A stretch of 51,470 nt of DNA from a virus: positions 1 to 51,470 of the IMG/VR virus record IMGVR_UViG_3300050821_023966; one strand, 5' to 3'. The notes beneath the pieces were generated by a model. The model made no database searches. It saw only the letters and a list, made by a program, of their open reading frames with translations, and was not told the origin of the DNA. Position 1 is the stretch's first letter, and every line of letters begins with the position of its first letter. A program made the position numbers and the translations under genes. Of the stretch, positions 7,083 through 29,776 are shown in pieces.

Positions 7083-7085
7083 AAC

Positions 7086-7277: not shown

Positions 7278-7331
7278 ATTAAATTTTGGCGGATTATGAA
7301 GGTTTCAAAAATTCAAATCATATTTATATAT

Positions 7332-8097: not shown

Positions 8098-8098
8098 A

Positions 8099-8224
8099 CT
8101 AAATCAATTTTGCCTTTTTAAGTCTAGCCAATTGCTGTTTACTTAAAAATTCTAATGCCTTAACCAATTCTGAAACTGGTAATGGCACACATTTGCATAA
8201 TATATTGTTTGTTTTATTCTTCAT
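8099..8224 (-). CDS. Small protein (41 aa)
   Basis: MKNKTNNILCKCVPLPVSEL start, then LEFLSKQQLARLKKAKLI. Stop lies 1 nt from the tRNA-Ser 5' end. Unknown. Confidence 0.5.
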   Translation of the reverse strand: MKNKTNNILCKCVPLPVSELVKALEFLSKQQLARLKKAKLI

Positions 8225-8241
8225 TAAATTCTTCTATGGTT

Positions 8242-8406
8242 TCACGATTGCTCTCTAATCCATTCAGTAACTGGTATAAATTTCTCACATTTGCAATTGG
8301 GACATTGTTTAAATACTTTATCCAGATCGTATATTTCAGAACAGCCAACACATTTTTTGAAATTTTGTAGTCTGGGTTTTATCTTAAAATATTCTGATAT
8401 TGTCAT
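8242..8406 (-). CDS. Zinc-ribbon protein (54 aa)
   Basis: MTISEYFKIKPRLQNF start, then CVGC...CPNCKC: two CxxC pairs 18 residues apart. Overlaps the next gene by 4 nt. Unknown role. Confidence 0.6.
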   Translation of the reverse strand: MTISEYFKIKPRLQNFKKCVGCSEIYDLDKVFKQCPNCKCEKFIPVTEWIREQS

Positions 8407-8540
8407 ACTTTATACCTTTTTCTTCCTTCATGCCACCCACAAATGTGACATTTTGCTCCTGCTGGAACCAATGCTCTATCACAACCACCACAATAAGTAT
8501 TTCCGCGTTTAGGATTTAATACCTTTTCGCGGTTAGACAT
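8403..8540 (-). CDS. Zinc-ribbon protein (45 aa)
   Basis: YCGGCDRALVPAGAKCHICG: double CxxC ribbon. The frame opens at 8594, but the ATG at 8540 (MSNREKVLNPKRG) avoids overlap with the upstream gene and is preferred. Confidence 0.6.
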   Translation of the reverse strand: MSNREKVLNPKRGNTYCGGCDRALVPAGAKCHICGWHEGRKRYKV

Positions 8541-8553
8541 TTTATAATCGGTA

Positions 8554-8739
8554 TCATAATATGATTTGTGCATAAATAGTTTCGGAATGACCACATTTCG
8601 GACATTTCCAACATTTTATTAGTTTACCTTCTGAATAGTTGTTAAATTCTGAACGAACATTCTGGTCTTTAAAATCCAATGATTTGCCGATCTCCATATT
8701 AATTTTACAATATGAACATTGTTTTAATTTATCTTTCAT
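8554..8739 (-). CDS. Zinc-ribbon protein (61 aa)
   Basis: CSYCKINME near the N-terminus and CWKCPKCGHSETIY near the C-terminus. Resembles the 74-aa protein at 9981-10205 (CPHCSRTETSY). Unknown role. Confidence 0.65.
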   Translation of the reverse strand: MKDKLKQCSYCKINMEIGKSLDFKDQNVRSEFNNYSEGKLIKCWKCPKCGHSETIYAQIIL

Positions 8740-8740
8740 A

Positions 8741-8816
8741 TGGCGTTCTCATTCGGAATCGAACCGAAATTTTAGATTTAGGAAATCCACACTCTATCCA
8801 TTTGAGTTATGAGAAC
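8741..8816 (-). tRNA. tRNA-Arg(CCT)
   Basis: Acceptor GTTCTCA/TGAGAAC, anticodon loop TTCCTAA, T arm TTCGG-TTCGATT-CCGAA, CCA encoded. Overlaps the tail of the HNH gene. Confidence 0.9.
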
Positions 8817-9075
8817 TTTCAGAAATACTTCTTATATATTTCCAATGATTAAATTCTTTTGCAGTTTTTCGTTTATGACAATAACTACACAATACTTGAC
8901 ATTTTTTTATTTCTTCTATTAGAATTTTCATATTTGTGGAATTACACATTATCGCACAAATATCGTATTCTTTTTCTGTATGTTTTATATGGTCAAATTC
9001 CAATACAATTGGGTCGTTTTCGCCACAGTTTTCACATGGATGTGATTTTAAATACTCCCAAATAAAATCTTGCAT
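8794..9075 (-). CDS. HNH endonuclease domain (93 aa)
   Basis: CENCGENDPIVLEFDHIKHTEK (CxxC and DH of HNH), then CQVLCSYCHKRKTA. Starts by TAATG overlap with the stop of the zinc protein upstream. In other phages these two modules often occur in one polypeptide, so this may be a split gene. Confidence 0.82.
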   Translation of the reverse strand: MQDFIWEYLKSHPCENCGENDPIVLEFDHIKHTEKEYDICAIMCNSTNMKILIEEIKKCQVLCSYCHKRKTAKEFNHWKYIRSISESSHNSNG

Positions 9076-9266
9076 TATTTTTCTGTATCGAATATTATTT
9101 TTTTAACACTTGCAAGATGTGTTTGTCGTCCTGCACCATTATACCAATTTTTAGCGATTTGTTTTTTACATTCACGGCAATATTTTTGCAATCCATCAGC
9201 AGTGGATTTATTTTTACAAAATTCAGATTCTAATTTACGGTTTTTACATTTACAGCATGTTTTCAT
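9075..9266 (-). CDS. Zinc-binding N-module of an HNH protein (63 aa)
   Basis: MKTCCKCKNRKLESEFCKN followed by GLQKYCRECKK: the CxxC...CxxC domain that commonly precedes HNH in homing endonucleases. Ends at the start of the HNH module (TAATG). Either a frameshifted single gene or two coupled subunits. Confidence 0.65.
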   Translation of the reverse strand: MKTCCKCKNRKLESEFCKNKSTADGLQKYCRECKKQIAKNWYNGAGRQTHLASVKKIIFDTEK

Positions 9267-9302
9267 AGTTTCCTTAGGAAATTTATCAAAAAGATGAAAA
9301 TA

Positions 9303-9389
9303 TGGCGGAAGATAATTGAATCGAACAATCGTCTTTTTAGGGACGGGAGAGTTTTCGAGACTCTTTAACCACCAAGGTTCCTACCTTCC
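9303..9389 (-). tRNA. tRNA-Ser(CGA)
   Basis: Acceptor GGAAGGT/ATCTTCC, anticodon arm AGAGT-CTCGAAA-ACTCT, class II variable arm, CCA encoded. Confidence 0.92.
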
Positions 9390-9538
9390 AAATTATATAT
9401 GGGTTTAATCTCTAAAGATTCATCCCATAACCAATATGTTCCATCACATTCAGGACATATTAAATATTCATCTGACCATATATCATCAGTTGGAAACACT
9501 ATATTAAGTCCAACTTTACATTGTGGGCAAACTTTCAT
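9365..9538 (-). CDS. Zinc-ribbon protein (57 aa)
   Basis: MKVCPQCKVGLNIVF and LICPECDGTYWLWDE: two CPxC knuckles. Its last codons overlap the 5' 25 nt of tRNA-Ser(CGA). Start overlaps the upstream stop. Confidence 0.6.
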   Translation of the reverse strand: MKVCPQCKVGLNIVFPTDDIWSDEYLICPECDGTYWLWDESLEIKPIYNLEGRNLGG

Positions 9539-9699
9539 GGTAAACTCCCAACATGTGAACCGTAATTTATAATATCTAAACCTTTTCGGAAATATTCTTT
9601 TCGTTGCTTATCGGTAAGTTTATTACATTTCTCACGTATTTTTCTGGCCAATTTTGATCCTTCCGTTTCTTCTGGATAATCAATCTTTACTTTTTTCAT
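9535..9699 (-). CDS. Small basic protein (54 aa)
   Basis: MKKVKIDYPEETEGSKLARK start, no motif. Overlaps neighbours on both sides (ATGA at 9535-9538). Confidence 0.55.
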   Translation of the reverse strand: MKKVKIDYPEETEGSKLARKIREKCNKLTDKQRKEYFRKGLDIINYGSHVGSLP

Positions 9700-9880
9700 A
9701 TTGCGATCTCACTTTTCTTAAAATATTGTTTAATTGACCATCTGCTATAAAGTAATTTTTACAATCACAACAAACTGTCACGGAAGTATTTATGGTGTAA
9801 GTTTTGTTTTTAAAAATTTGAAATATGTCTCGTTTTTCTGATACGAAACTATCTTCATTACCACATTTAAAACATATCAT
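9680..9880 (-). CDS. Zinc-ribbon protein (66 aa)
   Basis: MICFKCGNEDSF and VCCDCKNYF, two CxxC pairs. Part of the chain of overlapping small genes. Unknown role. Confidence 0.62.
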   Translation of the reverse strand: MICFKCGNEDSFVSEKRDIFQIFKNKTYTINTSVTVCCDCKNYFIADGQLNNILRKVRSQYEKSKD

Positions 9881-9984
9881 ACTTCTTTTTGATTATTAAT
9901 AATTCGCTGAATAACAATGTAATCAACTTCTTCATCAATTTTATCTAACTGTGATTCTATAATATCTATTGTTAATTGTTTCAT
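9877..9984 (-). CDS. Small protein (35 aa)
   Basis: MKQLTIDIIESQLDKIDEEV start, acidic amphipathic. Overlaps both neighbours by 4 nt, supporting translation in the operon. Confidence 0.5.
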   Translation of the reverse strand: MKQLTIDIIESQLDKIDEEVDYIVIQRIINNQKEV

Positions 9985-10205
9985 AAAGCTTTAAGTATAT
10001 TATTTAAAATCTTTTTATCGATATGTTGTGCTAAATCATTAGCGGCACCATTGTAAGAAGTTTCCGTTCTACTACAATGTGGGCATTCATAATACTCATG
10101 ATGATAAGGTATTCCCATGGCACCGATTTCTTCACCGAATTGAATTAAATCCATGGCAATTTCACACTTTTTACATTGTTTCATAATTAATTTTACACGT
10201 TCCAT
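9981..10205 (-). CDS. Zinc-ribbon protein (74 aa)
   Basis: CKKCEIAMDL and YYECPHCSRTETSYNG. An ATG at 10184 (MKQCKKCEI) is an alternative start. Similar layout to the protein at 8554-8739, suggesting paralogues. Confidence 0.62.
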   Translation of the reverse strand: MERVKLIMKQCKKCEIAMDLIQFGEEIGAMGIPYHHEYYECPHCSRTETSYNGAANDLAQHIDKKILNNILKAL

Positions 10206-10208
10206 AAC

Positions 10209-10592
10209 TCATAGTATTATTAATCCCTCATGTAATTCACTATGGCAATTACCACATAATAATATACATTTTTCTGCTTCCTTTCTGGCCGTCGCTATAC
10301 CTCTACTATCAAGTAAAGTACTCACTGAATTTTCTTTTGTTGTTGAATCCATATGATGGAAATCTAATGCTGATAAACATTTATCATATCCACATTTTTT
10401 ACATTTCCCGCCATATTCCATTTTGAGATCATATCTGGCTTTATTTCGATTAATATTTCGATTTTTTTTAGAAACCGTTCTAACATCTTCAGAACAATGC
10501 CAAGCTACGGTGGATTTTGAACAGTTTAATATTTCACAAATTTCATCATATGTTTTATTGGCTGCTCGTAATTCTAATATTTTTTCTTTCAT
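10209..10592 (-). CDS. HNH homing endonuclease with N-terminal helix-turn-helix (127 aa)
   Basis: The N-terminus TYDEICEILNCSKSTVAWHCS looks like a helix-turn-helix. KCKKCGYDKCLSALDFHHMD and CILLCGNCHSELHEGL form the zinc-stabilised HNH. Same family as the gene at 35763-36236 (shared ending CxNCHxExHxGLI(I/V)L). Confidence 0.85.
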   Translation of the reverse strand: MKEKILELRAANKTYDEICEILNCSKSTVAWHCSEDVRTVSKKNRNINRNKARYDLKMEYGGKCKKCGYDKCLSALDFHHMDSTTKENSVSTLLDSRGIATARKEAEKCILLCGNCHSELHEGLIIL

Positions 10593-10696
10593 ATTAATAT
10601 ATAGTTCGAGTCTGTCCTAAAGACTAAAAATAATTTTTATAAATGAATGAGATGACAAAATTCAACTACTGACTAAGATGGCTTCCATTTACCCCA

Positions 10697-10999
10697 CTAT
10701 ACTCCGTTAACACGTTTTAAAAAATCTGACCACCAATTTCGATTGTATATGGTTTCATCACTTAATTTTCTCCATACCCAAAGTTCTTTATCATCATCGA
10801 ACTGCGGTTCAATCTCTAAATTATCAGTCTCAACTTCAAGAACACAATAATGACCTTCCATCTCATTACCAACATGAAAACTGAAATGACCGTTATTATC
10901 TTCATCCTCAATACAATCACTATAACGTGGTGGTTGAGGGTCTAAAATTTTACCTTCTTCTGGTACAATTTTATCAAAATTAAATTGTAAATTTTCCAT
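10697..10999 (-). CDS. Hypothetical acidic protein (100 aa)
   Basis: MENLQFNFDKIVPEEGK start at 10999, which avoids overlap with the HNH gene (the frame opens at 11056). Very acidic and Trp-rich near the end (WVWRKLSDETIYNRNWW). Unrecognised. Confidence 0.65.
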   Translation of the reverse strand: MENLQFNFDKIVPEEGKILDPQPPRYSDCIEDEDNNGHFSFHVGNEMEGHYCVLEVETDNLEIEPQFDDDKELWVWRKLSDETIYNRNWWSDFLKRVNGV

Positions 11000-11003
11000 A
11001 TTG

Positions 11004-11726
11004 TTAAATCCCGAATGATATCGCCCATTTCTTAATCGCGTTGTCACTGACACCATATTTCTTTCCTAAGTCAACTAATGATATCATTTTCATTTCTTCT
11101 TGTAAAGTTTCTTTTGATGGCCTCGGTACTTTTCTTTTATTTATATTAGAACATTCTGTACAAAATCGTGCTCTTTTACAAATTGCATTCCCACATTCAC
11201 AATAATATTTTTTAATATTAGATTTACCAGCAAAAGTGTCAGTTTGACTGTGACAGTTTGGGCATAACCACCTTAGATTTTCCAATCTATTATCATCACC
11301 AATTCCATTTATATGATCAATTTGTAAACTTAATATCTCTCCATTCCAAATTGCTTCATTATTACATATACCACAAATGTATGGTAATAAATTATAAAAT
11401 TTTAAATATGTCCTAAGGGTATTCCTAGAATATTGACAGTTTTCAATAAATAAACATTGTTTACACTCAACCAACGTTAATTTATATAAATTTAAAAAAT
11501 TTCGTCCTTTATTTGAATTATTGCCAAGTTTAATATGACTGAAATCTATATCATCGGCAATTAATCTACATTTTAATGTTTTTATATTACCCCCTTTGGA
11601 TTTTAATCCACAGTGATTCAGGATTTTACTTAATGAATCGGATATATTGACAATGGATTTTAACTCTTCTAATGGTATGTGCCATATCGGACTTCGTTTT
11701 TTTCGAACATTTTTTTGTTTTATCAT
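11004..11726 (-). CDS. HNH homing endonuclease (240 aa)
   Basis: CGICNNEAIWNGEILSLQIDHI then NLRWLCPNCHSQTDTF form the HNH core near residues 115-165. A second zinc ribbon (CECGNAICKRARFCTECS) and a C-terminal helix-turn-helix (MISLVDLGKKYGVSDNAIKK) follow, the NUMOD-type layout of DNA-binding homing nucleases. Confidence 0.87.
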   Translation of the reverse strand: MIKQKNVRKKRSPIWHIPLEELKSIVNISDSLSKILNHCGLKSKGGNIKTLKCRLIADDIDFSHIKLGNNSNKGRNFLNLYKLTLVECKQCLFIENCQYSRNTLRTYLKFYNLLPYICGICNNEAIWNGEILSLQIDHINGIGDDNRLENLRWLCPNCHSQTDTFAGKSNIKKYYCECGNAICKRARFCTECSNINKRKVPRPSKETLQEEMKMISLVDLGKKYGVSDNAIKKWAISFGI

Positions 11727-11787
11727 ATCAATAAACAGTGTAATGGTAACACAAAATTACATATATTTTATGTGATACTAATAATAA

Positions 11788-11863
11788 TGGCTCCCTGTGA
11801 TGGTTACGCTCCACCCTTATCTGGTTCAAAGCCAGTAGTAATCAACTAATATACGAACAGGGA
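11788..11863 (-). tRNA. tRNA-Gln(TTG)
   Basis: Acceptor TCCCTGT/ACAGGGA, anticodon loop CTTTGAA, CCA encoded, G73. T loop AGCGTAA is non-canonical although its stem GGTGG/CCATC pairs. Confidence 0.8.
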
Positions 11864-11873
11864 ATAAAAAATA

Positions 11874-11951
11874 TGGTTGGGGTAGATGGAATCGAACCAT
11901 CGGATACTTTTTCTTTCAGAGAGAAACGTGCCGCCACTACACTATACCCCA
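11874..11951 (-). tRNA. tRNA-Gln(CTG)
   Basis: Acceptor TGGGGTA/TACCCCA, anticodon arm TTTCT-CTCTGAA-AGAAA, T arm GATGG-TTCGATT-CCATC, CCA encoded. Confidence 0.9.
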
Positions 11952-11982
11952 ATAAATGGTGGAGACGAAAATGCAATGAATC

Positions 11983-12062
11983 TGGTGGAGCATGAGAGGG
12001 TTGAACTCTTAAATTTAACTTGCTTGCAAAGCAAGTGCTACACCCGTGTAGCCACACACCCC
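11983..12062 (-). tRNA. tRNA-Ala(TGC), copy 1
   Basis: Acceptor GGGGTGT/ATGCTCC with the Ala-type G3-T70 pair, anticodon arm CTTGC-TTTGCAA-GCAAG, CCA encoded. Confidence 0.87.
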
Positions 12063-12147
12063 ATTTAAATCGCTTCGCCCCCCTCGTAACACTACGAACA
12101 TCATTTATTCTTGACAAGTGCGATAACTTGTGGGGACTACTGAAATT

Positions 12148-12175
12148 ATTATATCATATGCCGAGTGGAGAGCAA
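12148..12175 (-). promoter_or_regulatory. Promoter of the Ala/Gln tRNA cluster
   Basis: TTGCTC, N16, TATAAT with extended TGA. A perfect 6-bp hairpin ACAAGT/ACTTGT (12114-12131) lies between it and the tRNA. The remaining 12176-12358 shows no convincing gene. Confidence 0.6.
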
Positions 12176-12358
12176 TATGACAGTTTAGTTATTCTTACCG
12201 AATACCCGTCTAGTCCACCATTCACATTATTCAGATCAATACGATTTTGTATTCATTCAATAATGCGTAACTTTAAACTTGTGGTGCTTGGGATTTTTAC
12301 CCCTTTCTTTAATCACGTCAATCGGCACCAAATTGTCGGAACTTTCTTTATATATAAA

Positions 12359-12496
12359 TTATAACCAAAATTCTTTATCTTCATTAACTGGTTTGATTTT
12401 ACCAGCTTTTCTATCTTCTTCAAATTGACGTATGGCATTTTCTACCTCACACTTCAATTCTTCTAAAGTTCCTTCATAATCAGTTTTTATCCACAT
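12359..12496 (-). CDS. Small protein (45 aa)
   Basis: MWIKTDYEGTLEELKCEVEN start, then a charged helix and KEFWL end. Unknown. Confidence 0.55.
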   Translation of the reverse strand: MWIKTDYEGTLEELKCEVENAIRQFEEDRKAGKIKPVNEDKEFWL

Positions 12497-12602
12497 ATAT
12501 TATATAAAATGTAGCAATTGCCAAGATTATTGAATGGTTGATCATTCCCATCCTCAATTGGTTTACTAAGGCAACCTCCAATTGGTTATAATTGCTATCA
12601 TA

Positions 12603-12697
12603 TGGTAGTCTCGCCCGGATTCGAACCGAGAATGCGCCCCAATCTAGGACATATCAGAGGTATAAGCTCTGCATTTTACCAGTTAAATTACGAGACT
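12603..12697 (-). tRNA. tRNA with anticodon TAT (Ile?) and long variable arm
   Basis: Acceptor AGTCTCG/CGAGACT, D arm ATTT-AACTGGTA-AAAT, anticodon arm CAGAG-CTTATAC-CTCTG, CCA encoded. The variable region is about 24 nt, which is not expected for Ile. Confidence 0.8.
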
Positions 12698-12698
12698 A

Positions 12699-12772
12699 TG
12701 GTGCAGTAGGGGAGAATCGAACTCCCACGTCAACATTGGCAATGTCATAGGCTACCATTACATCACTACTGC
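12699..12772 (-). tRNA. tRNA-Gly(GCC)
   Basis: Acceptor GCAGTAG/CTACTGC, anticodon loop TTGCCAA, T arm GGGAG-TTCGATT-CTCCC, CCA encoded. Confidence 0.9.
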
Positions 12773-12868
12773 AATTCTAAATTATTGTTGATAAACCCAT
12801 AGACCTTTTTTTACATATAGGATTTTTTACATTGGTTTTGATATTCCTCAATATCACTGTTTATCATA

Positions 12869-12942
12869 TGGAGCGGGTGAAGGGAATCGAACCCTCACAG
12901 AAACATTGGAAGTGTTTCAGGCTACCATTACATCACACCCGC
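12869..12942 (-). tRNA. tRNA-Gly(TCC), copy 1
   Basis: Acceptor GCGGGTG/CACCCGC, anticodon stem GAAACA/TGTTTC with loop CTTCCAA, CCA encoded. Confidence 0.9.
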
Positions 12943-13055
12943 ATTTAACGATGAATTTATAATTTCCACCGACATTCACATTTCTCCGTAAGGCCAAAAC
13001 GTAAGTACAAACATAACCGTTGACTTTTTAATTTAAGGTATAATCAACTAACCTA

Positions 13056-13129
13056 CGGAGCATCGTGTGAGAATCGAACTCACATGACGAGATTGGAAAT
13101 CTCGGACACAGCCATTATGCCAACAATGC
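13056..13129 (-). tRNA. tRNA-Gly(TCC), copy 2
   Basis: Acceptor GCATTGT/ACGATGC, anticodon arm CGAGA-TTTCCAA-TCTCG. The tail reads CCG instead of CCA. Confidence 0.87.
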
Positions 13130-13283
13130 ATTTGGAGGGTATTCGTTATTTTGATAACTTAACTCCATTAGATGGATGGAAAACATTATCACTTTACGCT
13201 TTTATCATCTAATCCTCTCGCCCTACCCAAGAGAATATACTCTTTACAAATGGTATCTTACTATATACATATTAATTTGTCAA
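13130..13283 (-). ncRNA. Structured leader between a promoter and tRNA-Gly
   Basis: A TTGACA-N17-TAAGAT promoter is read on the minus strand near 13256-13284. The downstream leader holds the hairpin AAGAG-TATATT-CTCTT and an 8-bp inverted repeat ATTAGATG/CATCTAAT around a ~30-nt loop. No credible reading frame. May only be a long tRNA leader. Confidence 0.4.
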
Positions 13284-13289
13284 GAAAAA

Positions 13290-13475
13290 TTACCGAATTT
13301 CATCACGATCTTTATAATGATCAACTATCATCACATGTCCACCAACTATAAACATTTCTGAACATACGGGTTCTTCTTGAATAACTGGTGTGGGTACTGG
13401 TACTCTAATTATTGCCACACAACCTGTTACAAGCATTACTCCAATAACCGCCATTGATATTACTATTTTTCTCAT
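13290..13475 (-). CDS. Small lipoprotein (61 aa)
   Basis: From ATG at 13475: MRKIVISMAVIGVMLVTGC is a lipoprotein signal peptide with lipobox LVTGC. The rest is Pro/Val-rich. Predicted to be lipidated and membrane-anchored after export. It begins 3 nt beyond the end of an oversized tRNA-like gene. Role unknown (perhaps lysis or superinfection exclusion). Confidence 0.75.
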   Translation of the reverse strand: MRKIVISMAVIGVMLVTGCVAIIRVPVPTPVIQEEPVCSEMFIVGGHVMIVDHYKDRDEIR

Positions 13476-13478
13476 AGA

Positions 13479-13651
13479 TGAAGAACGAGATTGGAATCGA
13501 ACCAATTACTCTAAACTTGTATCAAGATTTACTGTTATTAATTGGTGACTTTATACTGGTTATGAGCCAGATTTTCTTTATATGAGGTTTCTCCTCAAAC
13601 CAACAAGTTAAACATACTATCGTTTATACTCTACCAATGAGTTACCCGTTC
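13479..13651 (-). tRNA. Oversized tRNA-like gene 1 (173 nt)
   Basis: Acceptor GAACGGG/CTCGTTC (7 of 7 with one G-T), D arm ACTC-ATTGGTA-GAGT and T arm ATTGG-TTCGATT-CCAAT are intact. Between D and T arms lie ~125 nt instead of ~25, including a Met-like hairpin CTGG-CTCATAA-CCAG, the hairpin TGAGG-AGAAA-CCTCA, and an enclosing AACTTGT/ACAAGTT. The tail reads TCA. Confidence 0.55.
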
Positions 13652-13656
13652 ATAAA

Positions 13657-13801
13657 TGGTGACGAATACGGGATTCGAACCCGCTACTTTATCTACAAAC
13701 CCTTATCAGGTCTTACCTACTATTTTCAGGAACGTCGCATCGCAACTATTTACCTACTTTTCGGTGATATCGTTTTAATCCAGCTATACAACTAATTCGG
13801 C
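13657..13801 (-). tRNA. Oversized tRNA-like gene 2 (145 nt)
   Basis: Acceptor GCCGAAT/ATTCGTC (6 of 7), T arm GCGGG-TTCGAAT-CCCGT, CCA encoded. An Ile-like segment CCTGATAAGG lies before the T arm with imperfect stem pairing. About 70-80 extra nt separate D arm and anticodon-like arm. Confidence 0.5.
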
Positions 13802-13809
13802 ATTTAAAA

Positions 13810-13883
13810 TGGTGGAAACTGTGGGATTTGAACCCAACCTTCTCGGTGCAAACGAAATGTGCTCCCAACTACACTACAGCCCC
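13810..13883 (-). tRNA. tRNA-Ala(TGC), copy 2
   Basis: Anticodon arm TTTCG-TTTGCAC-CGAGA, G3-T70 present, CCA encoded. Acceptor GGGGCTG/AGTTTCC is weak (two mismatches). Confidence 0.78.
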
Positions 13884-13978
13884 ATTAAAATTTATTGATA
13901 AAGTCTTGAATCGGCATGTGTTATAACACCCCAAACCGCTAAATTATCGTCAAGCTATATTGGTTTTTCTCTATCAAA

Positions 13979-14068
13979 TGGTGGGCAAGGTGAGAATCGA
14001 ACTCACGTTGTTTCTTAAGTAGCAGATTTTAAGTCTACCGCGTTTCAGCCTAGCTTCGCCACATGCCC
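13979..14068 (-). tRNA. tRNA-Leu(TAA)
   Basis: Acceptor GGGCATG/CTTGCCC, anticodon loop CTTAAAA, long variable arm as expected for Leu, A73, CCA encoded. Confidence 0.9.
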
Positions 14069-14165
14069 ATAAACCTGTCTAGGTAATTACTCCTTATGAC
14101 AGGAATTAGTATTTTTGCGGAATCGACCACAATTGTGATGAATTCCATCGGACTTCTCCGAGAAG

Positions 14166-14243
14166 TGGTAGATGCACTCGGATTCGAACCGAGACTACTA
14201 TAGGTTTGAGCTATATGACTCCTGCCAATTGGTCTATGCATCC
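14166..14243 (-). tRNA. tRNA with Leu anticodon CAA, short variable loop
   Basis: Acceptor GGATGCA/TGCATCT, anticodon arm TATAG-CTCAAAC-CTATA, A73, CCA encoded. The variable loop is only ~5 nt, so the body is class I although Leu tRNAs are class II. Confidence 0.85.
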
Positions 14244-14468
14244 ATTATAATTCGTGTGGTGAATCACCCCTTACATTATAACTTCACAATCAATTTACTT
14301 GAATGTAAACTTTCAATTGATTATCTCGCTCATTTCTAACGAGTCATTAAACCAAGTTTAATGCGTAATTTTATTCCTAAATTAACTCCATCTCATATCG
14401 TCATATGGGACACCATGTTTTTCTCATGGATGACTGATGTTATAAATAACAGAGCAATATCGGAGAAA
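14244..14468. other. Non-coding spacer with hairpins (225 nt)
   Basis: No gene recognised. On the minus strand it holds hairpins CTCGTT-AGA-AATGAG, TTTAC-ATTCAA-GTAAA flanked by TCAATT/AATTGA, and a partially paired CCATATGAC/GATATGAGATGG region. Likely structured RNA or tRNA leader. Confidence 0.4.
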
Positions 14469-14546
14469 TGGTAGCATCGAAGGGATTCGAACCCATACTG
14501 CCTAGATTCTAAGACTAGTGACTCCTGCCAATTGGTCTACGATGCC
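14469..14546 (-). tRNA. tRNA with Leu anticodon TAG, short variable loop
   Basis: Acceptor GGCATCG/CGATGCT, anticodon loop CTTAGAA (one stem mismatch), A73, CCA encoded. D arm identical to the CAA and GAG copies. Variable loop short. Confidence 0.82.
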
Positions 14547-14799
14547 ATTAAATTAATAACGTTCATGGATGATGGAGGTAATGATCATTCTGATTACTCA
14601 TTTTTCATTTTACCTGTACATTATTACTAATTATACTTTCCAAGAAATTAATAACGTTTATGGAAACGTTGAAACCGTGACTGGTTAAGGTTAAGCATCA
14701 CGACCTGAATTTACGTTCTCGCTCTAAATCCCAATAATCATGCGTTCATCTTTTTATTTTAAGGTAATAGACGAATAACCCATTTCTTATAAGAAATTA
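14547..14799. other. Non-coding spacer with strong dyads (253 nt)
   Basis: Contains AACGTTT-CCAT-AAACGTT, CGTGA/TCACG, and the perfect 16-bp palindrome ATTTCTTATAAGAAAT at 14782-14797. A direct repeat CAT(A/G)AACGTTATTAATTT occurs twice. No gene seen. Confidence 0.45.
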
Positions 14800-15003
14800 T
14801 TAAGCATGGAGCGGCGCACCAATCAAATCAGCCATTCTGTTAACCTGTTCAAACCAAGAATCCAAATCCTTAGTGATGTCATTATTACAATCGGTACACT
14901 TCCAAAAATCACCACAAAATTTGACTTTACCCAATTTCTTGAGTTCTTCAAATCTGCGGTTACACTTTTTACATTCAAAATATGTTTCTTTTTTGTTCTT
15001 CAT
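14800..15003 (-). CDS. Zinc-ribbon protein (67 aa)
   Basis: From ATG 15003: YFECKKCNRRFEEL and WKCTDCNNDITKDL, two CxxC pairs. The frame opens at 15072 with a basic extension (MRFFRRLKPRPVRPSK) that could also be used. Unknown function. Confidence 0.65.
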   Translation of the reverse strand: MKNKKETYFECKKCNRRFEELKKLGKVKFCGDFWKCTDCNNDITKDLDSWFEQVNRMADLIGAPLHA

Positions 15004-15263
15004 AAAATTGGTCGTCAGATTTATTTTGCTCGGTCTAACGGGACGAGGTTTCAATCTGCGAAAAAATCGCACAAGCTGATAGAAATAATCACATGTATTA
15101 TTCCGTCTTGTTGATTGGTTTGATTAAATAAATTAGCTGAGAATCTTCCATCATATACCCTCACGGATGTATAGGCTTAAACACTGTTCCTATTTATACC
15201 ATTGCCGATCCTCTTTATGATGTTTCACATTGACCTCCAGTGTCGAGGCTTTTAACTAATTTA
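15004..15263. other. Mostly non-coding spacer
   Basis: Apart from the possible extension of the zinc-ribbon gene, no frame, tRNA or terminator was recognised here. Confidence 0.4.
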
Positions 15264-15341
15264 TGGTGGGCACACTGGGACTCGAACCCAGACATTTTCA
15301 GTTCTCAGCCGAACGACTCCTGCCAATTGGTCTATGTGCCC
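15264..15341 (-). tRNA. tRNA with Leu anticodon GAG, short variable loop
   Basis: Acceptor GGGCACA/TGTGCCC, anticodon arm TTCGG-CTGAGAA-CTGAA, T arm CTGGG-TTCGAGT-CCCAG, A73, CCA encoded. Variable loop ~5 nt. Confidence 0.87.
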
Positions 15342-15761
15342 ATAATCAAACAATATACGTGTCACCTATTATGCTATAAGTTATTCTAGCGAGCCTTAAC
15401 TCGGATGATTGCGATAAAAGATATATTATTATCCACCATTCACATTTTGTCCACCCTCTTCAGGGGATTTGTTTGAAATTGTTTTAATACAGCCATAGCC
15501 GCGTTTTTGTTTTATCTCTACATTTATCTCAATCACACTTAGGCAGATAATCTGCGGTGATGGTAGATACTATCTACTGCCTCAACCCGAACTTTACTAC
15601 GATAAGCACTAATCTTTGTTCTGTTTGAGTTGCTCCTAATTTGTGGTATTAATGGAATTGTCCTGTTATAATTACAGGAGACTGTTCCTCCCAATCATCT
15701 GCTTTGGAGACGCGAACTTCCTCTAACTATTTCTAGTCAGCGTAGAGTCGCTTGTATTAAA
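15342..15761 (-). ncRNA. Long structured non-coding region (420 nt)
   Basis: No gene frame. Read on the minus strand it has nested palindromes GTAGATA-G-TATCTAC and GCAGAT/ATCTGC within one GGCAG...CTGCC stem, and a T-arm-like CCTGT-AATTATA-ACAGG. Could be a structured RNA or a run of decayed tRNAs; the strand is inferred from neighbours. Confidence 0.4.
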
Positions 15762-15837
15762 TGGTCGGGGCGGTGAGATTCGAACTCACAGTATCTTGCT
15801 CCCAAAGCAAGCGGAATAGCCATTATCCTACGCCCCG
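15762..15837 (-). tRNA. tRNA-Pro(TGG)
   Basis: Acceptor CGGGGCG/CGCCCCG, anticodon arm CTTGC-TTTGGGA-GCAAG, CCA encoded. Confidence 0.93.
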
Positions 15838-15844
15838 ATAAAAA

Positions 15845-15924
15845 TGGTAGTCTGGGAGGGACTCGAACCCCCGTTGATAAACACAGTGTAAATGTGTCGC
15901 CGTCGCCGCTGGTGCCACCAGACT
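15845..15924 (-). tRNA. tRNA-Val(TAC)
   Basis: Acceptor AGTCTGG/CCAGACT, anticodon arm ACACA-TTTACAC-TGTGT, CCA encoded. The D arm is unusually GC-rich and irregular. Confidence 0.87.
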
Positions 15925-15962
15925 ATAAATTTAATCGCTAATTCAGTTCTGCAATGACGCAT

Positions 15963-16030
15963 AACACCGATTAACCAATCACAGTTTTTGATTATAGTGG
16001 ATAAACCCGATGGAGTTACAAACCACTCTA
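15963..16030. repeat. Dispersed repeat, copy 1
   Basis: Shares blocks AACACCG, ACCAATCA.AGTTTTTG, ATAAACCCGATGGAGTT and CAAACCACTCT with 37348-37416; shorter matches at 12783-12805 and 13921-13950. Read on the minus strand this copy stays open (EWFVTPSGLSTIIKN), so it may be a gene relic. Confidence 0.55.
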
Positions 16031-16035
16031 AAATT

Positions 16036-16191
16036 CTAATTTCTACCTAACAATCTACGAACTTTATTTACTTTTGCCTTATTACCTTGACCATATTCAA
16101 TTAAAGCTTCCGTTGTTTCCTTACTGGCCATAAATACCATGTCTTTCGGCATATACTTGTTCCAAATTTCACTAAATCGTTCGTATTTCAT
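16036..16191 (-). CDS. Small basic protein (51 aa)
   Basis: MKYERFSEIWNKYMPKDM start and basic tail KVRRLLGRN. Preceded by TTGACA-N16-TAATAT at 16207-16234. Unknown. Confidence 0.6.
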   Translation of the reverse strand: MKYERFSEIWNKYMPKDMVFMASKETTEALIEYGQGNKAKVNKVRRLLGRN

Positions 16192-16206
16192 TTCGATTGT
16201 TTTTAT

Positions 16207-16234
16207 ATATTACACTATCTTTTCAAATTGTCAA
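16207..16234 (-). promoter_or_regulatory. Promoter of the 51-aa gene
   Basis: TTGACA, N16, TAATAT, then about 15 nt to the ATG. Confidence 0.7.
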
Positions 16235-16254
16235 TCACTATTTTCATCAAACTT

Positions 16255-16288
16255 AAAACCCTCTTCGACTTTCGCCAGAGAGGGTTTT
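16255..16288. terminator. Rho-independent terminator
   Basis: Perfect 10-bp stem AAAACCCTCT/AGAGGGTTTT with an inner GCGAAAG hairpin loop. T-tracts on both sides make it usable in both directions. Confidence 0.85.
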
Positions 16289-16426
16289 TTCTATTTCTGC
16301 TGTATTTCCTCGTTGGCGTTAAGTACCCTTTATGGATAAAGCGGGACTCAATGGTTGGAGCGATGCTCCCCCGTTTGATCTGCTGACTGCTACAAGTTGT
16401 GATACGATTAAATTCATACTCTATTA
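16289..16426 (-). ncRNA. Small discrete transcript (sRNA or 32-aa peptide)
   Basis: Bounded by a promoter (16433-16460) and the terminator at 16255-16288, giving an RNA of about 170 nt. It contains the hairpin GGAGC-ATC-GCTCC. It could also encode a 32-aa peptide (MNLIVSQLVAVSRSNGGAS...) starting ~10 nt after the predicted start point. Confidence 0.5.
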
Positions 16427-16432
16427 ACAATA

Positions 16433-16460
16433 AGTATATACTAAAAACAGAAAACGTCAA
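16433..16460 (-). promoter_or_regulatory. Promoter of the small transcript
   Basis: TTGACG, N16, TATACT. Confidence 0.8.
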
Positions 16461-16488
16461 GTATTTTTTTAGGTTTTTTTAATTATAT

Positions 16489-16884
16489 TTATGCCCCTTC
16501 GTCTGTAAACGTGAAATATAATAGTTCATAATCACTCACAACATGCTGTCCCTGTTCGTTTTGTGTTAATTTTCCGAACCCAACCGGGCGAACTGACCAT
16601 GGTTTATCGATGTTTTCCTTTATATAATTCCCCATTGGGGTATTAAGTAATTCAATATCAGCAACAACCATATCATTTTCGATTTTACAGTCGTTTACAA
16701 ATGCCGCCACTTTAGTCAAATTTATCGTATTGGATGGATCAGAGTGTTCATCATAAACACTCACCATAAACCCTTTATTTTTAATAAGTTGCTCATTATC
16801 ATTAATTGCCTTCTCCATTACCTCTTTTGGGTAAATTCTTCCATTTTTGTTCGGTACTCCCAATTTTGTTATTTCGTATTTCAT
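16489..16884 (-). CDS. Prohead-protease-like protein (131 aa)
   Basis: NKNGRIYPKEVMEKAI at the N-terminus matches the start of T4 gp21-type prohead proteases, followed by DEHSDP (catalytic-His region), VVADIELLNTPMG (family strand ExLNTPxG) and VVSDYELLYFTF. The serine region reads SVRPVGFGKL instead of VGISSRG, so the nucleophile seems displaced or lost. It may be an inactive homologue or a divergent enzyme. Last gene of the 16.5-22.8 kb operon. Confidence 0.6.
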   Translation of the reverse strand: MKYEITKLGVPNKNGRIYPKEVMEKAINDNEQLIKNKGFMVSVYDEHSDPSNTINLTKVAAFVNDCKIENDMVVADIELLNTPMGNYIKENIDKPWSVRPVGFGKLTQNEQGQHVVSDYELLYFTFTDEGA

Positions 16885-17372
16885 AATTTTAGATCATCAG
16901 TTGGTTTTAAATCTTTAATATACATATTGTAGCAATCTTCTTTAAATTTCCATCCATTACCATCAGGGTCAATGTCACCCTGTTTACAAAACTTTGCATT
17001 TTTAAAGTATTCATCTTTTGGCATATAACCAAGAATCCATCCCAAATTCAAGCCATCATTTATTCTTACAAATATATATGCATCACATTGCTGTGATGTA
17101 TTTAAAGCACACACACTTACAGTATAATTCAATTCAGGTTTAAATCCACATCTTTTTGTCTTGACATCGTACCGTTTTTTATCTGGTGATATCAAATCAT
17201 ATTCGTATGTGTTCTGTCTTTTATATTTCAAATATTGTGCCACCATCATTTCACCAAGAAATCCCGCTATGTTGCCCTCACCCTTTGTGATAGAATTAGT
17301 CAATTTCCCCATTTGGTCGGAATATCTCATTGCCAAAACAATGGCTTTAGGATCAATTTTGAACTCAATCAT
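16881..17372 (-). CDS. PD-(D/E)XK nuclease-like protein (163 aa)
   Basis: GEMMVAQYLKYK (conserved Glu helix), YEYDLISPDKKRYDVKTKR (D...D-x-K: the PD-(D/E)XK metal site) and CDAYIFVRI match the restriction-endonuclease fold. Overlaps both neighbours by 4 nt. Substrate unknown. Confidence 0.7.
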   Translation of the reverse strand: MIEFKIDPKAIVLAMRYSDQMGKLTNSITKGEGNIAGFLGEMMVAQYLKYKRQNTYEYDLISPDKKRYDVKTKRCGFKPELNYTVSVCALNTSQQCDAYIFVRINDGLNLGWILGYMPKDEYFKNAKFCKQGDIDPDGNGWKFKEDCYNMYIKDLKPTDDLKL

Positions 17373-17578
17373 ACAAAATTTGGTGGATAATCAATGGTCA
17401 TTCGTTTATGCATTTTATCCATAATTTTTCTCAATCTTTCTATATTAGCCATTCTCACTTCGCGTACATAAATCGGTTCATTTATATTATTTGCTATCAA
17501 ACAATATGAATTCAATGCGTAATAGATTTCTTCATATTCTGGACCAGTTAGACTTCCTGTATCAATTTTTATGTTCAT
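17369..17578 (-). CDS. Hypothetical protein (69 aa)
   Basis: MNIKIDTGSLTGPEYEEIYY start, Arg-rich C-terminal half (VRMANIERLRKIMDKMHKRM). No motif. Overlaps its neighbours. Confidence 0.65.
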   Translation of the reverse strand: MNIKIDTGSLTGPEYEEIYYALNSYCLIANNINEPIYVREVRMANIERLRKIMDKMHKRMTIDYPPNFV

Positions 17579-17996
17579 GCTCTTTTTTTATTTTTTCAAT
17601 ATACTGTTCATACCTGAGTTTATCAAATCCTCTTACGGATGGGGAATAATGTTTCTTGCATTGTTCCTCCCCACACAAACACGGGGTTAATAAATATGCA
17701 ACGGAAGAAACATATGCCAGTCGACTTTTAAGTTCAGTTATTAACGATTGTTTAATCTCAGATGTCATACTAGAAATGACGGAATTAACCTCGTTAACAT
17801 CATCCGATGGTATCCTAGGTAATGATTGTATTATATGGTGTTTCACCACAAAAGGGGTGTTCTTCTTTTGGTCATACCCAACGTCACCATAAAACAAGCC
17901 ATTTATATCAATACAGCTTGCGGAATATATGGCACATCGTATTCCATGAGTTTTTAATTCATCTAAGGATATTATTTCAATGTAATCGTTGACCAT
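17562..17996 (-). CDS. Hypothetical protein (144 aa)
   Basis: Contains CLCGEEQCKKHY (possible zinc site) near residue 110. Long beta-like N-terminal half and basic tail. Not recognised. Confidence 0.7.
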   Translation of the reverse strand: MVNDYIEIISLDELKTHGIRCAIYSASCIDINGLFYGDVGYDQKKNTPFVVKHHIIQSLPRIPSDDVNEVNSVISSMTSEIKQSLITELKSRLAYVSSVAYLLTPCLCGEEQCKKHYSPSVRGFDKLRYEQYIEKIKKEHEHKN

Positions 17997-20429: not shown

Positions 20430-20695
20430 AACTTATATTTCTCTTGCAATTTTCTGATTTCTCTCATCAAAGCATTCTCTTCTGAAGTAGGCTCATAAAA
20501 TTTATATGGATAGCTATTAGCATATGGATATCTATTAAATACAGCATACTCTTTTAATAATTGAGTTAATGCCGCAAGATAGGCATCTTCATTTTTCATA
20601 ATAAGTTCATATGCATCTTTATATGCACGATCATAAACCTCCTTTTCATTGAATTTGATCTTATTATATTCTTCTTCGGTCAAAGTTATTATCAT
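20426..20695 (-). CDS. Hypothetical protein (89 aa)
   Basis: Charged helical protein (MIITLTEEEYNKIKFNEKEV). Sits between the ATP-grasp and CoaD-CoaE genes with 4-nt overlaps on both sides. Unknown. Confidence 0.65.
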   Translation of the reverse strand: MIITLTEEEYNKIKFNEKEVYDRAYKDAYELIMKNEDAYLAALTQLLKEYAVFNRYPYANSYPYKFYEPTSEENALMREIRKLQEKYKL

Positions 20696-21879
20696 ACAAA
20701 TATTGATTTAAATAAAAATGAATCTTTTAATTTTTCATTCAGTTCGATTGATTTAGCTTCATCTGTTGGAGAATCATGTACTGGATCGCCAACATCATTA
20801 TTAATAACATGTAGTGCTCCATTATTATCCTTTACCATAGCCAATATCATAAATGCTTTTCGTGCATCATTTGACATCTGTGAATTTATTCTTTTCACGG
20901 ATTCCTCTGGTGAATAGCCTCTGGATTTTAATCTAGCTAACACGGTTTCCTTACTACTATCAACAATAATCACATTATTATTACATAGATAAGTCATGTC
21001 ACCATCAACTAACAATGCTCCATTCAACAATATTAATCCAGATTTACCAGCAATTTTCTTACGCATTTCTCGAATCATGACTGGTTTATACAATTCTAAT
21101 AAAGTAGCATTGAATTTAGGATCATTAAATACACGTTCAGCCAATCTACTTTTCACAATTGATGGGAATTGATCAGCATCATTGCCCATTAACATCTTTT
21201 GAACAGTGCTTCTCAATTCCATTACTTCATGATTGTTCTGCCATGAATATTTATCAGAATAAGTGATTTCATTGGATATTACATCAAAATCTACATTTGT
21301 CACTGGTACACCTGAACTCACCCCGAATTTGGATAACAAGTTGGCAATATACGATTTGCCACACCCAATGCCGCCAGTCAATCCAACAATATATTGTTTA
21401 TTCTGGCGAATCTCAAGCATCTGTTTCGTGTATAACGGAACATAATCACGAACATCAGCATTATATTTAATCAACTCTTTGACGGCTGACGAACTAATCT
21501 TTTGATCTTTTGGATCGGAAAATAATACAAACGTGTCAATACCGTTCTCCTGAGACACGGTAACTTCATGTAACATTTTCTCATATTCCGTATCTTGGAT
21601 ATTTCTAATCCCTTTCAAAACAGATGTAATACCATGTTCCCTAGCAAAATCACTTACTAAACTAGTGTCTGGTAAAATGTGAACACTGACACTGTCATTG
21701 TTCGCAAACATCTTATGTATGATCTTAATACGTTCATCTATATTAAACAAATACTTCTTATTAGGATTATTTGCCACCAATATATAAACATGATCAAACG
21801 CTTTTAATGCACGATTGACAATATTAGCATGACCATTGTGAAAACAGTCAAAACTACCAGCATAAATACAGCTTTTCAT
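20692..21879 (-). CDS. Bifunctional CoaD-CoaE fusion (395 aa)
   Basis: Residues 1-~155 are phosphopantetheine adenylyltransferase: GSFDCFHNGHANI (TxGH-type nucleotidyltransferase motif), KGIRNIQDTEYE (family RGLRxxxDFEYE) and ISSSAVKEL. Residues ~160-395 are dephospho-CoA kinase: P-loop GLTGGIGCGKS, DFDVI, and VKRINSQM. Together they would run the last two steps of coenzyme A synthesis, 4'-phosphopantetheine to CoA, in the cytoplasm. The same order occurs in animal CoA synthase; bacteria usually encode separate enzymes. Overlaps the NADAR gene by 4 nt. Confidence 0.88.
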   Translation of the reverse strand: MKSCIYAGSFDCFHNGHANIVNRALKAFDHVYILVANNPNKKYLFNIDERIKIIHKMFANNDSVSVHILPDTSLVSDFAREHGITSVLKGIRNIQDTEYEKMLHEVTVSQENGIDTFVLFSDPKDQKISSSAVKELIKYNADVRDYVPLYTKQMLEIRQNKQYIVGLTGGIGCGKSYIANLLSKFGVSSGVPVTNVDFDVISNEITYSDKYSWQNNHEVMELRSTVQKMLMGNDADQFPSIVKSRLAERVFNDPKFNATLLELYKPVMIREMRKKIAGKSGLILLNGALLVDGDMTYLCNNNVIIVDSSKETVLARLKSRGYSPEESVKRINSQMSNDARKAFMILAMVKDNNGALHVINNDVGDPVHDSPTDEAKSIELNEKLKDSFLFKSIFV

Positions 21880-22406
21880 AATCCATTTTCCCTTAAAATA
21901 TCCCTGATTTCCATTAACACTTTACCTAAATTATTTTCTCCGTACTTCAAATTCACATCAAATCCCCAATATACGTCTTTCCAGTTGTTATATTCCGCCA
22001 GCGATTTGTGACCAGTATCTAACAACATTTCATTCAAATGTCGATTACGATAAAACTTATCAAATACCAACCGTTTCATGATTAGATATTTCCTATCATC
22101 AAATTGATCGGCGGTATATAAAATCTTTTCAGGATTTTTGATATCTTCCTTAATCATTCTCTTGGAGTCTTTGGCAGAACACTTATAATAAGGTGACCTA
22201 AATTCAACTTTCAATTTAGATGCTTGATATGCCGCTTCGGATGATGGATACGTTACACCATCAAACATAACTTCCGCAGGATGAAAATTAGACAAAAATC
22301 GATATTCACCAAAAAATCCACTAATCCTAGTACTATCATGGATGGCATATTCCTTCCATTGTCCAACTTTGTATCCCTCAACTTCATTGTACATTATGTC
22401 GCTCAT
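21876..22406 (-). CDS. NADAR/YbiA-like protein (176 aa)
   Basis: GEYRFLSNFHPAEVMFDGVTYPSSEAAYQASK is the NADAR signature (FLSNF, SxEAxYQ), with WKDVYWGFD...NNLGKVLMEIR completing the fold. NADAR proteins are N-glycosidases on riboflavin intermediates, and some remove ADP-ribose from guanine, reversing DarT-type toxins. Overlaps both neighbours. Confidence 0.85.
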   Translation of the reverse strand: MSDIMYNEVEGYKVGQWKEYAIHDSTRISGFFGEYRFLSNFHPAEVMFDGVTYPSSEAAYQASKLKVEFRSPYYKCSAKDSKRMIKEDIKNPEKILYTADQFDDRKYLIMKRLVFDKFYRNRHLNEMLLDTGHKSLAEYNNWKDVYWGFDVNLKYGENNLGKVLMEIRDILRENGL

Positions 22407-24630: not shown

Positions 24631-25011
24631 TGGTGGACTGAACGGGATTCGAACCCGTGTGTTAGCTAAAACAATACGAATGACTACGTGTGTATTCACT
24701 TTAAGTTTACTCATGATGATGATTAAATGTGTCCAAAACACCATCCGTGAGATTTGTTAAATTTCGATCTATAACCCAAATCATTGTTATATCTCTAGTC
24801 CAATTTTTAACGCAGTTGATAACTATCAGACTTCACTACCAATCTACGGGTAACCTATTAGGCTACAGCAACTTCGTCCATCTCTGGAACAAAGTCATAT
24901 GCTTCAATGTTTTCAGCATTTGATTTTCGAATGAATTTTAAAGTAGCCTTTCATTCAACTACTACACGCCATCCTATACTAATTCTATCTAGTCGATGCC
25001 AGTATCAGCCC
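24631..25011 (-). ncRNA. ssrA: tmRNA (transfer-messenger RNA)
   Basis: 5' end GGGCTGATACTGGCATCGAC matches the conserved tmRNA start (GGGGCTGATTCTGGATTCGAC). It pairs 7 of 7 with the 3' acceptor TCAGTCC, then A and encoded CCA. T arm CGGG-TTCGAAT-CCCG. An internal tag frame (24858-24917) encodes about AENIEAYDFVPEMDEVAVA followed by tandem stops TAA TAG. Length 381 nt is typical. A TTGACT-N16-TATAAT promoter lies just upstream. It would rescue stalled ribosomes and tag the nascent peptide. The exact resume codon (GCT proposed) is uncertain. Confidence 0.92.
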
Positions 25012-26846: not shown

Positions 26847-27323
26847 TCAGTAAAACAATTCAAAAAATTCTTTCTTAAAATATATATTGTCAGGAATATC
26901 AAACGCCCCAAACATTTTACACATTTCTTTGGCTGAATACCCATTCAGCCCAGTCTTATTCTCTTGGGCAACCAAGAATTCCCAAAAAGGATGTATATTG
27001 GCAAATTCATATAATGAACCAATAGATTTAATAATCTCCTCTGGTGTACGACTTCTCCTACACCCAGCATTAGTTACAGTTGGTAACGCATAAGATTTTC
27101 CTATTTCACCCTCTTGAAAACCTTCGCCAATACCTTTTACATTCCATTTACCCTTCCATCCATTAGGTTTATTTGCATAATCAAATGCTCTCCAATGGTT
27201 GCCAACTAAATTAAATGAGGCATATCCAGCCGAACCAGCACCATGGAAACCCTTTAAATTTGATCCAAATACAAAAACTTGGTCAATAGTTAAATTGGTT
27301 ACAAAATCTACGTAAAATTTCAT
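26847..27323 (-). CDS. Macro-domain-like protein (158 aa)
   Basis: QVFVFGSNLKGFHGAGSAGYA near residue 16 resembles the ADP-ribose-binding start of a macro-like phage family (VFGSNLxGxHGxGxA). GIGEGFQEGEIGKSYALPT and a C-terminal helix follow. Members are predicted to bind or hydrolyse ADP-ribose derivatives. Start overlaps the stop of the MoaD-like gene by 1 nt, so both are co-transcribed. Confidence 0.72.
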   Translation of the reverse strand: MKFYVDFVTNLTIDQVFVFGSNLKGFHGAGSAGYASFNLVGNHWRAFDYANKPNGWKGKWNVKGIGEGFQEGEIGKSYALPTVTNAGCRRSRTPEEIIKSIGSLYEFANIHPFWEFLVAQENKTGLNGYSAKEMCKMFGAFDIPDNIYFKKEFFELFY

Positions 27324-27595
27324 TATCCTCCAGCCATTGCTGGTACAATACTAATTTCATCACCGCTAGTTATTTTGGTATCCATATTATTCAAAAATCT
27401 AATATCTTCACCATTTACATAAATGTTAACAAACTTGTTAAAGTTTCCATTAATATCAAAAAGACGATCTTTGGCTAACGGATAAAACGCAAATATATGA
27501 CTTCTCAATCCTTCCACCGAATCCAGTTCCAGTTCTAATGTACTGGCTCCATTCATTACTTTCCTTAATTGTTCTGGAATTGAAATTGTGTTCAT
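27323..27595 (-). CDS. MoaD/ThiS-like ubiquitin-fold sulfur carrier (90 aa)
   Basis: Beta-grasp pattern: FVNIYVNGEDIRFLNNMDTKITSGDEISIVPAMAGG, with the family motif (VNGxxxR, xGDEIxIVPxxxGG) and the diagnostic C-terminal Gly-Gly. MoaD/ThiS relatives are activated by E1-like adenylation and carry sulfur as thiocarboxylate, or are conjugated to proteins. No E1-like partner is visible in the window. First gene of a two-gene operon with the macro-like protein. Confidence 0.85.
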   Translation of the reverse strand: MNTISIPEQLRKVMNGASTLELELDSVEGLRSHIFAFYPLAKDRLFDINGNFNKFVNIYVNGEDIRFLNNMDTKITSGDEISIVPAMAGG

Positions 27596-27603
27596 CTTTC
27601 AAT

Positions 27604-27632
27604 AATATATCAGACATTATCTGATATGTCAA
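27604..27632 (-). promoter_or_regulatory. Promoter of the MoaD-like/macro-like operon
   Basis: TTGACA, N17, TATATT, 8 nt before the ATG. The spacer contains a perfect inverted repeat ATCAGA-TAATG-TCTGAT, similar to the dyad in the large-RNA promoter. Confidence 0.8.
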
Positions 27633-29224: not shown

Positions 29225-29776
29225 TCATTGATTTTTGAAATTATCTCTATATATATCTTTAATGGCGTTTATGCCATATTTGTTCAATTCTCTTGTTCCA
29301 ATACCAGCGAAATTCTCTGTCAGTATTGGCATTACCTGTAATGGTTTAAATTCTTTTATTTCATGTATATACTTATTCCATATATTATTTTCTTGATCAA
29401 AGAAGAATACAGGCTTCTCATTATCTATGGCCATTTGTACAGCCCAACCTGTTCCTCCAGCAACCATTGATTTATTTAAAAACTTACCAATTGCAAAAAT
29501 AGATTCAGCATTCTTGACTTGATACCAATTACGTGATAACAAATTCTTAACATACTGATATGGATGATTAGGATTCCTTTTAATGGTTTTCGAAGCAATT
29601 ATAACATGCTCAAATCCTTCTTTTAATTCATCCACCGTCAAAATTTTTTGATTCTCACCTGATTGTTTGTGGTTCCAAAATGAATATGATATGGTTTTTA
29701 CCCCATATTGCTTGCCTGTGTTCTCCCATTCCATATCAGCACCATCACAACCACCACTATGACAAATATAATTCAT
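29225..29776 (-). CDS. SLOG-superfamily protein (183 aa)
   Basis: YICHSGGCDGADMEWENTG (SGGAxGAD-type glycine loop), SIFAIGKF, GGTGWAVQMAI and PVFFFDQ, FAGIGTREL are the nucleotide-binding elements of the SLOG (LOG/DprA-like) fold. Such proteins bind or cleave nucleotide-derived ligands such as NAD/ADP-ribose-type molecules. No obvious partner gene. Confidence 0.75.
   Translation of the reverse strand: MNYICHSGGCDGADMEWENTGKQYGVKTISYSFWNHKQSGENQKILTVDELKEGFEHVIIASKTIKRNPNHPYQYVKNLLSRNWYQVKNAESIFAIGKFLNKSMVAGGTGWAVQMAIDNEKPVFFFDQENNIWNKYIHEIKEFKPLQVMPILTENFAGIGTRELNKYGINAIKDIYRDNFKNQ

Follow-up and report, generated by a model that had tools for sequence, protein, structure and literature searches.

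A CysO-like sulfur carrier gene and a gene for a predicted macro-fold protein, adjacent in a large-phage tRNA island

The DNA analysed here (the window) comprises positions 1 to 51,470 of the IMG/VR virus record IMGVR_UViG_3300050821_023966, which is possibly a fragment. ARAGORN detected 46 tRNA genes and one tmRNA in its 51,470 nucleotides, and Rfam confirmed the tmRNA and most of the tRNAs; the window is a large-phage tRNA island. The locus under study, on the minus strand, consists of the following features.

27604-27632, minus strand: sigma-70-like promoter, TTGACA-17-TATATT, with TG before the -10, between a tRNA-Met gene and the ThiS-like gene
27608-27626, unstranded: dyad in the promoter spacer, 7-bp arms (TATCAGA and TCTGATA) around a 5-nt loop (TAATG), TATCAGATAATGTCTGATA
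27323-27595, minus strand: ThiS/MoaD-type, CysO-like sulfur carrier of 90 aa with a C-terminal Gly-Gly (ending VPAMAGG)
26847-27323, minus strand: A1S_2505-family protein of 158 aa with a predicted macro-domain fold

The gene pair begins 45 nt past the tRNA-Met gene and ends 3 nt short of a tRNA-His gene. The two open reading frames overlap by 1 nt in the sequence TAATG, which joins a TAA stop to an ATG start, and the Gly-Gly codons GGAGGA directly before the stop of the ThiS-like gene double as a Shine-Dalgarno sequence for the macro frame. The promoter, which scores 11/12, is the sole exact occurrence of its hexamer pair in the window, and as its -10 ends only 8 nt from the ATG of the ThiS-like gene, the message would be nearly leaderless. 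The spacer dyad shares two bases with the -10 and is a candidate operator-like element, unique in the window even when up to two mismatches were allowed. Since perfect 7-bp dyads with 3-8-nt loops occur 50 times in the window, the presence of one in a given promoter spacer, for which we estimate a chance of roughly 1%, is unusual rather than remarkable. The two genes are likely to form one transcription unit.

The 90-residue protein was assigned by profile, sequence and predicted structure. It matched Pfam ThiS (PF02597) with 44.5 bits against a cut-off of 22.5, and its best sequence match among solved structures was CysO of M. tuberculosis (54.5 bits, residues 3-90). An AF2 model built from 42 phage and bacterial relatives (pLDDT 91.6) adopted a beta-grasp fold, to which Foldseek placed CysO closest (TM 0.88), followed by SAMP1 and MoaD-type proteins; Urm1 was also among the structural matches. 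As the protein did not reach the NCBIfam equivalog cut-offs for SAMP1 (42.5 bits against 60), MoaD (18 against 66.15) or ThiS (16 against 37.45), we name it CysO-like and not CysO. It shares fold, length, sequence and the P-A-x-A-G-G tail with CysO of M. tuberculosis (3dwg) and Amycolatopsis (4n6e), but in contrast to these it is phage-borne, in a record devoid of a cysteine synthase, JAB or E1 gene. Related proteins have been met in viruses before. TAPI, of the lambda gpI type, is likewise a phage-encoded ThiS/MoaD-related beta-grasp protein (PMC1779556), but carries an extra domain and lies among tail genes beside JAB/NlpC, whereas the window gene lies in a tRNA island and encodes a free Gly-Gly carrier. 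A moaD-type carrier has also been reported among viral moaD/mec/moeZR sulfur-relay auxiliary metabolic genes (PMC12092443), although as an annotation only, without the CysO-like subtype, the phage clade or the tRNA-island setting.

The ThiS-like gene was found in 12 viral records including the window, which together encode nine distinct proteins, and the free C-terminal Gly-Gly is kept in every phage copy. The window gene is sister to that of L004 (support 97/84), and the two group with L007 and L109 in a clade made up of phage sequences only (99/98). Monophyly of all phage copies was not rejected (p-AU 0.20), while the free tree spreads them over about four clusters, on an alignment of 90 columns that is too short for the deep branches. 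Among the phage genes dN lies at 0.2-0.4 with synonymous sites saturated or nearly so, and the protein is therefore under purifying selection. The surroundings of the gene vary. Clusters of tRNA genes flank it in the window, L004-6, L110/111 and L113, whereas no tRNA lies within 3 kb in L001, L007, L008, L109 or L112. In L007 and L109 an exonuclease-like gene, identified by reading, overlaps the ThiS-like start by one base, and in L008 a prohead protease lies nearby. Directly downstream are the macro gene in the window, unassigned proteins in L110/111 and L007/L109, a tRNA in L113, and in L112 (8001-8737, plus strand) a gene for AdoMet decarboxylase (PF02675, 59 bits) after a gap of 8 nt. Since these surroundings differ by lineage, the pattern is that of single-gene cargo. 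As separate observations, a phage adenylosuccinate synthetase (PF00709, 271.6 bits) is encoded close to the ThiS-like gene in L110 (490-1503, plus strand), and L113 has an ORF resembling it (9272-10276).

The 158-residue product of the second gene belongs to the NCBIfam family A1S_2505 (NF049995; 68.3 bits against a cut-off of 45) and also matches phrog_2072, neither of which has an assigned function; a literature search found no paper under the name A1S_2505. The window copy, while a full member of this phage non-structural family, is a divergent one, given the 153-157 bits reached by the canonical members in G024, G025 and G027. The macro resemblance was detected by structure comparison only. 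Pfam gave no hit on the window protein and 13.3 bits on a canonical relative, against a Macro cut-off of 22, and searches of solved structures by sequence, using the window protein, a canonical relative and a profile, did not reach macro domains. The AF2 model (pLDDT 90.3, with five models spanning 56 to 90), compared through Foldseek and VIA-align, aligned with macro domains at Z up to 11.9 over 131 residues (rmsd 3.0). Its top matches were macro domains and designed proteins with the macro fold, the leading macro domains being TTHA0132, TARG1, the alphavirus macro, Poa1p and DarG. The predicted fold is thus that of TARG1/alphavirus-type macro domains (4j5r, 2l8r, 3gqo) and TTHA0132 (2dx6), at Z 11-12 over about 130 residues, but identity to them is about 14% with no match at the level of sequence. 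The motifs AIPTK and IGCGL of canonical members read ALPTV and NKTGL in the window copy, which makes the activity of the protein uncertain; TARG1 relies on a lysine and an aspartate in regions that may correspond to these motifs. The modelled fold suggests that the protein may be a hydrolase or a binder of ADP-ribose.

A first-pass annotation of this DNA had described a MoaD/ThiS-like protein ending in GG, overlapping by 1 nt a macro-like gene under one promoter with a spacer dyad. All of these elements are present, the structure prediction it had called for returned the beta-grasp fold, and 'macro-like' holds for the predicted fold. It had also proposed a single system made up of both genes, which the genomic evidence does not support. 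The macro gene adjoins the ThiS-like gene in 1/12 viral records, the window, and in none of the other 11, so that, as regards adjacency, the pair did not withstand the co-occurrence comparison. The macro family and the ThiS-like gene share a record in 4/12 cases, three of them from related phages, and the macro family is absent from the remaining eight. In the near-identical phages G024 and G025 the macro gene lies about 7.6 kb from the ThiS-like gene on the opposite strand, and in G027 about 17 kb away. Conversely, a ThiS gene was absent from all 16 contigs carrying close macro relatives, and among GenBank phages the macro protein had matches in 27 records, the ThiS protein in none. Given that the pair lacks conservation, a joint ThiS-macro system was rejected as the principal explanation. 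When DNA was scanned with a degenerate pattern for a second ThiS tail running into TAATG, a single viral contig matched, and as the hit there runs antisense to a recombinase-like ORF, we regard it as a chance match.

Two further genes of the window suit the macro gene as partners better than the ThiS-like gene does.

29225-29776, minus strand: SLOG/DprA-like protein (phrog_768, 69.9 bits)
21876-22406, minus strand: NADAR-domain protein (PF08719, 74.9 bits against a cut-off of 35.1)

Macro, NADAR and SLOG proteins co-occur and share neighbourhoods in phages, where they have been read as countermeasures against ADP-ribose signals (PMC9503650). The macro gene with the NADAR and SLOG genes fits this described phage NAD/ADP-ribose repertoire, in which the SLOG/DprA-like protein is a likely functional companion of the macro gene. 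Since 56% of jumbo phages are reported to have macro domains (PMC9503650), the presence of ThiS-like and macro genes in one genome is to be expected. As an aside, L003 contains an ORF of 3840 aa (6359-17881, plus strand) with what appear to be SLOG-, AlkB-, A1S_2505- and helicase-like regions and two NADAR-like regions, the A1S_2505 part being assigned by profile and the others by reading.

The sulfur partners expected of a CysO-type carrier were sought in the phages and in bacteria. None of the 12 ThiS-bearing viral records, which may be fragments and one of which is 365 kb, contained ThiF (E1), PALP or Prok-JAB; the CysO companions cysM, mec (JAB) and a MoeZ-type E1 are thus not encoded in any of them, nor do the E1 and JAB of ubiquitin-like conjugation and defence operons lie beside the ThiS-like gene. 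The earlier remark that no E1-like enzyme is visible agrees with the lack of a ThiF match in the 51-kb window record, itself possibly a fragment, and its suggestion of reliance on a host E1 is borne out in so far as a working carrier would have to be both charged and used by enzymes of the host. ATP_bind_3 (TtuA-type) passed its cut-off in 0/12 records, with one weak partial match, below cut-off, in G026. NifU_N was found in one of the 12 only, L008, where an iron-sulfur scaffold protein of this type (10848-11270, plus strand, about 161 bits) lies 2 kb from the ThiS-like gene.

Bacterial relatives gave a different picture. The closest cellular sequences found, with up to 53% identity, are ThiS-like carriers of loci L025-L104, which in contrast to the phage gene are encoded with metabolic partners. 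A PALP-family PLP enzyme lies within 3.5 kb in 53 of the 80 close relatives; in 46/80 loci it belongs to a threonine-synthase-like group, an identity checked on four representatives, and the other PALPs are cysteine synthase-like. A NIL-type protein just downstream (22 of the 80), ThiF (12) and JAB (6) were also recorded, each call being checked by profile on one representative. The recurrent threonine-synthase-like/ThiS-like/NIL-domain neighbourhood, mainly in Chloroflexi and Verrucomicrobia, is an observation in its own right and a possible protein-thiocarboxylate pathway to amino acids. Such routes are known for cysteine (PMC3227635) and, through work cited in PMC5764234, for methionine, and NIL/ferredoxin proteins contribute to making homocysteine in other settings (PMC5764234). 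In cells, this branch of carriers would most likely serve to assimilate sulfur into amino acids. As MoeZR charges both MoaD and CysO carriers while MoeBR does not charge CysO (PMC3227635), a phage carrier could plausibly be charged by a borrowed host E1, provided that the host has an E1 of a suitable type.

Several explanations of the locus were weighed against these results. That the Gly-Gly protein is conjugated through, or acts as a decoy for, a host E1, with the macro protein reading or processing an ADP-ribosylated product as part of one dedicated system, draws on the 1-nt overlap, the common promoter, the Shine-Dalgarno sequence inside the Gly-Gly codons and a macro fold that is real as far as the prediction goes; against this, the single case of adjacency, the sparse co-presence largely from related phages, the 16 macro contigs lacking ThiS and a tail-overlap scan that gave a chance match only leave it very improbable. 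The one-transcript arrangement could nevertheless reflect a joint function in this phage alone. Marginally more remote still is the idea that large phages tag or block proteins of the host or of defence by means of a stand-alone ubiquitin-like Gly-Gly protein working through the host E1, with the macro gene coupled to it in this phage as a joint counter-defence unit.

Two other readings concern the ThiS-like protein by itself. A TtuB-type carrier for tRNA thiolation would suit the tRNA clusters around the gene in the window, L004-6, L110/111 and L113, but the five records with no tRNA within 3 kb do not share this setting, and cargo of unrelated kinds would be expected to gather in tRNA islands. 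Moreover, no TtuA-type enzyme exceeded the cut-off in the 12 records, although a host enzyme could serve, and TtuB is a poor structural match to the 90-residue model (E 0.14, against 1.4e-9 for CysO). We consider this reading unlikely. A ubiquitin-like modifier or decoy directed against host ubiquitin-like defence, and independent of the macro gene, is a little less likely again: SAMP1 and Urm1 appear among the structural matches, the Gly-Gly tail is invariant and the phages encode no metabolic partner, but the SAMP1 model fell short of its cut-off, the bacterial relatives sit in metabolic loci, and PADLOC gave no match, either for the protein or for the ThiS-like/macro pair. A search of defence-related literature found nothing on phage-encoded ThiS decoys, and nothing in our results speaks positively for the E1 decoy or the undescribed modification that the first-pass annotation had raised.

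We therefore favour, at a probability of roughly 0.68, an independent sulfur carrier, whichever sulfur pathway it serves, next to a macro-type ADP-ribose protein; both genes are known kinds of phage cargo which stand side by side and probably work separately. They would be two independent cargo genes on one transcription unit within the tRNA island, the 1-nt overlap reflecting translational coupling eased by the GGAGGA codons and not necessarily implying a shared pathway. The C-terminus of the CysO/MoaD-type carrier would be adenylated by a host MoeZ/ThiF-type E1 and converted to a thiocarboxylate, which would supply a sulfur-transfer enzyme of the host, the likeliest candidate being a PLP enzyme of the cysteine/homocysteine type, and the carrier may in this way raise sulfur flux during infection. 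With no sulfur-transfer enzyme, E1 or JAB in the phage records, every catalytic step rests on the host. The A1S_2505 protein may bind or cleave ADP-ribose derivatives and, with the NADAR and SLOG proteins, could blunt host defence based on NAD/ADP-ribose or clear by-products of RNA repair.

If the carrier reading is true, several unrelated large phages bring a protein-bound sulfur donor that the host charges, a little-examined contact between infection and the sulfur supply of the host. If the macro reading is true, it provides the A1S_2505 phage family, which has no assigned function, with a fold and with an activity in NAD/ADP-ribose conflict that can be tested. The ThiS-macro pairing itself carries little weight unless independent cases appear.

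Elsewhere in the window, all on the minus strand, lie several other features. The phage-encoded tmRNA (24631-25011; Rfam 73.9 bits) has the ARAGORN tag AENIEAYDFVPEMDEVAVA, and a GOLLD RNA (RF02032, 217.7 bits) at 3603-4062 contains a tRNA at 3926-3995. An ORF of 395 aa (20692-21879) fuses cytidylyltransferase-like (CoaD type) and dephospho-CoA kinase (CoaE) domains. A short aminoacyl-tRNA-synthetase-like protein at 2114-2755 (phrog_4806, histidyl tRNA synthetase, 122.6 bits) is undersized for a complete synthetase, and residues 1-90 of the product of 4760-5407 match indole-3-glycerol phosphate synthase (PF00218, 29.2 bits).
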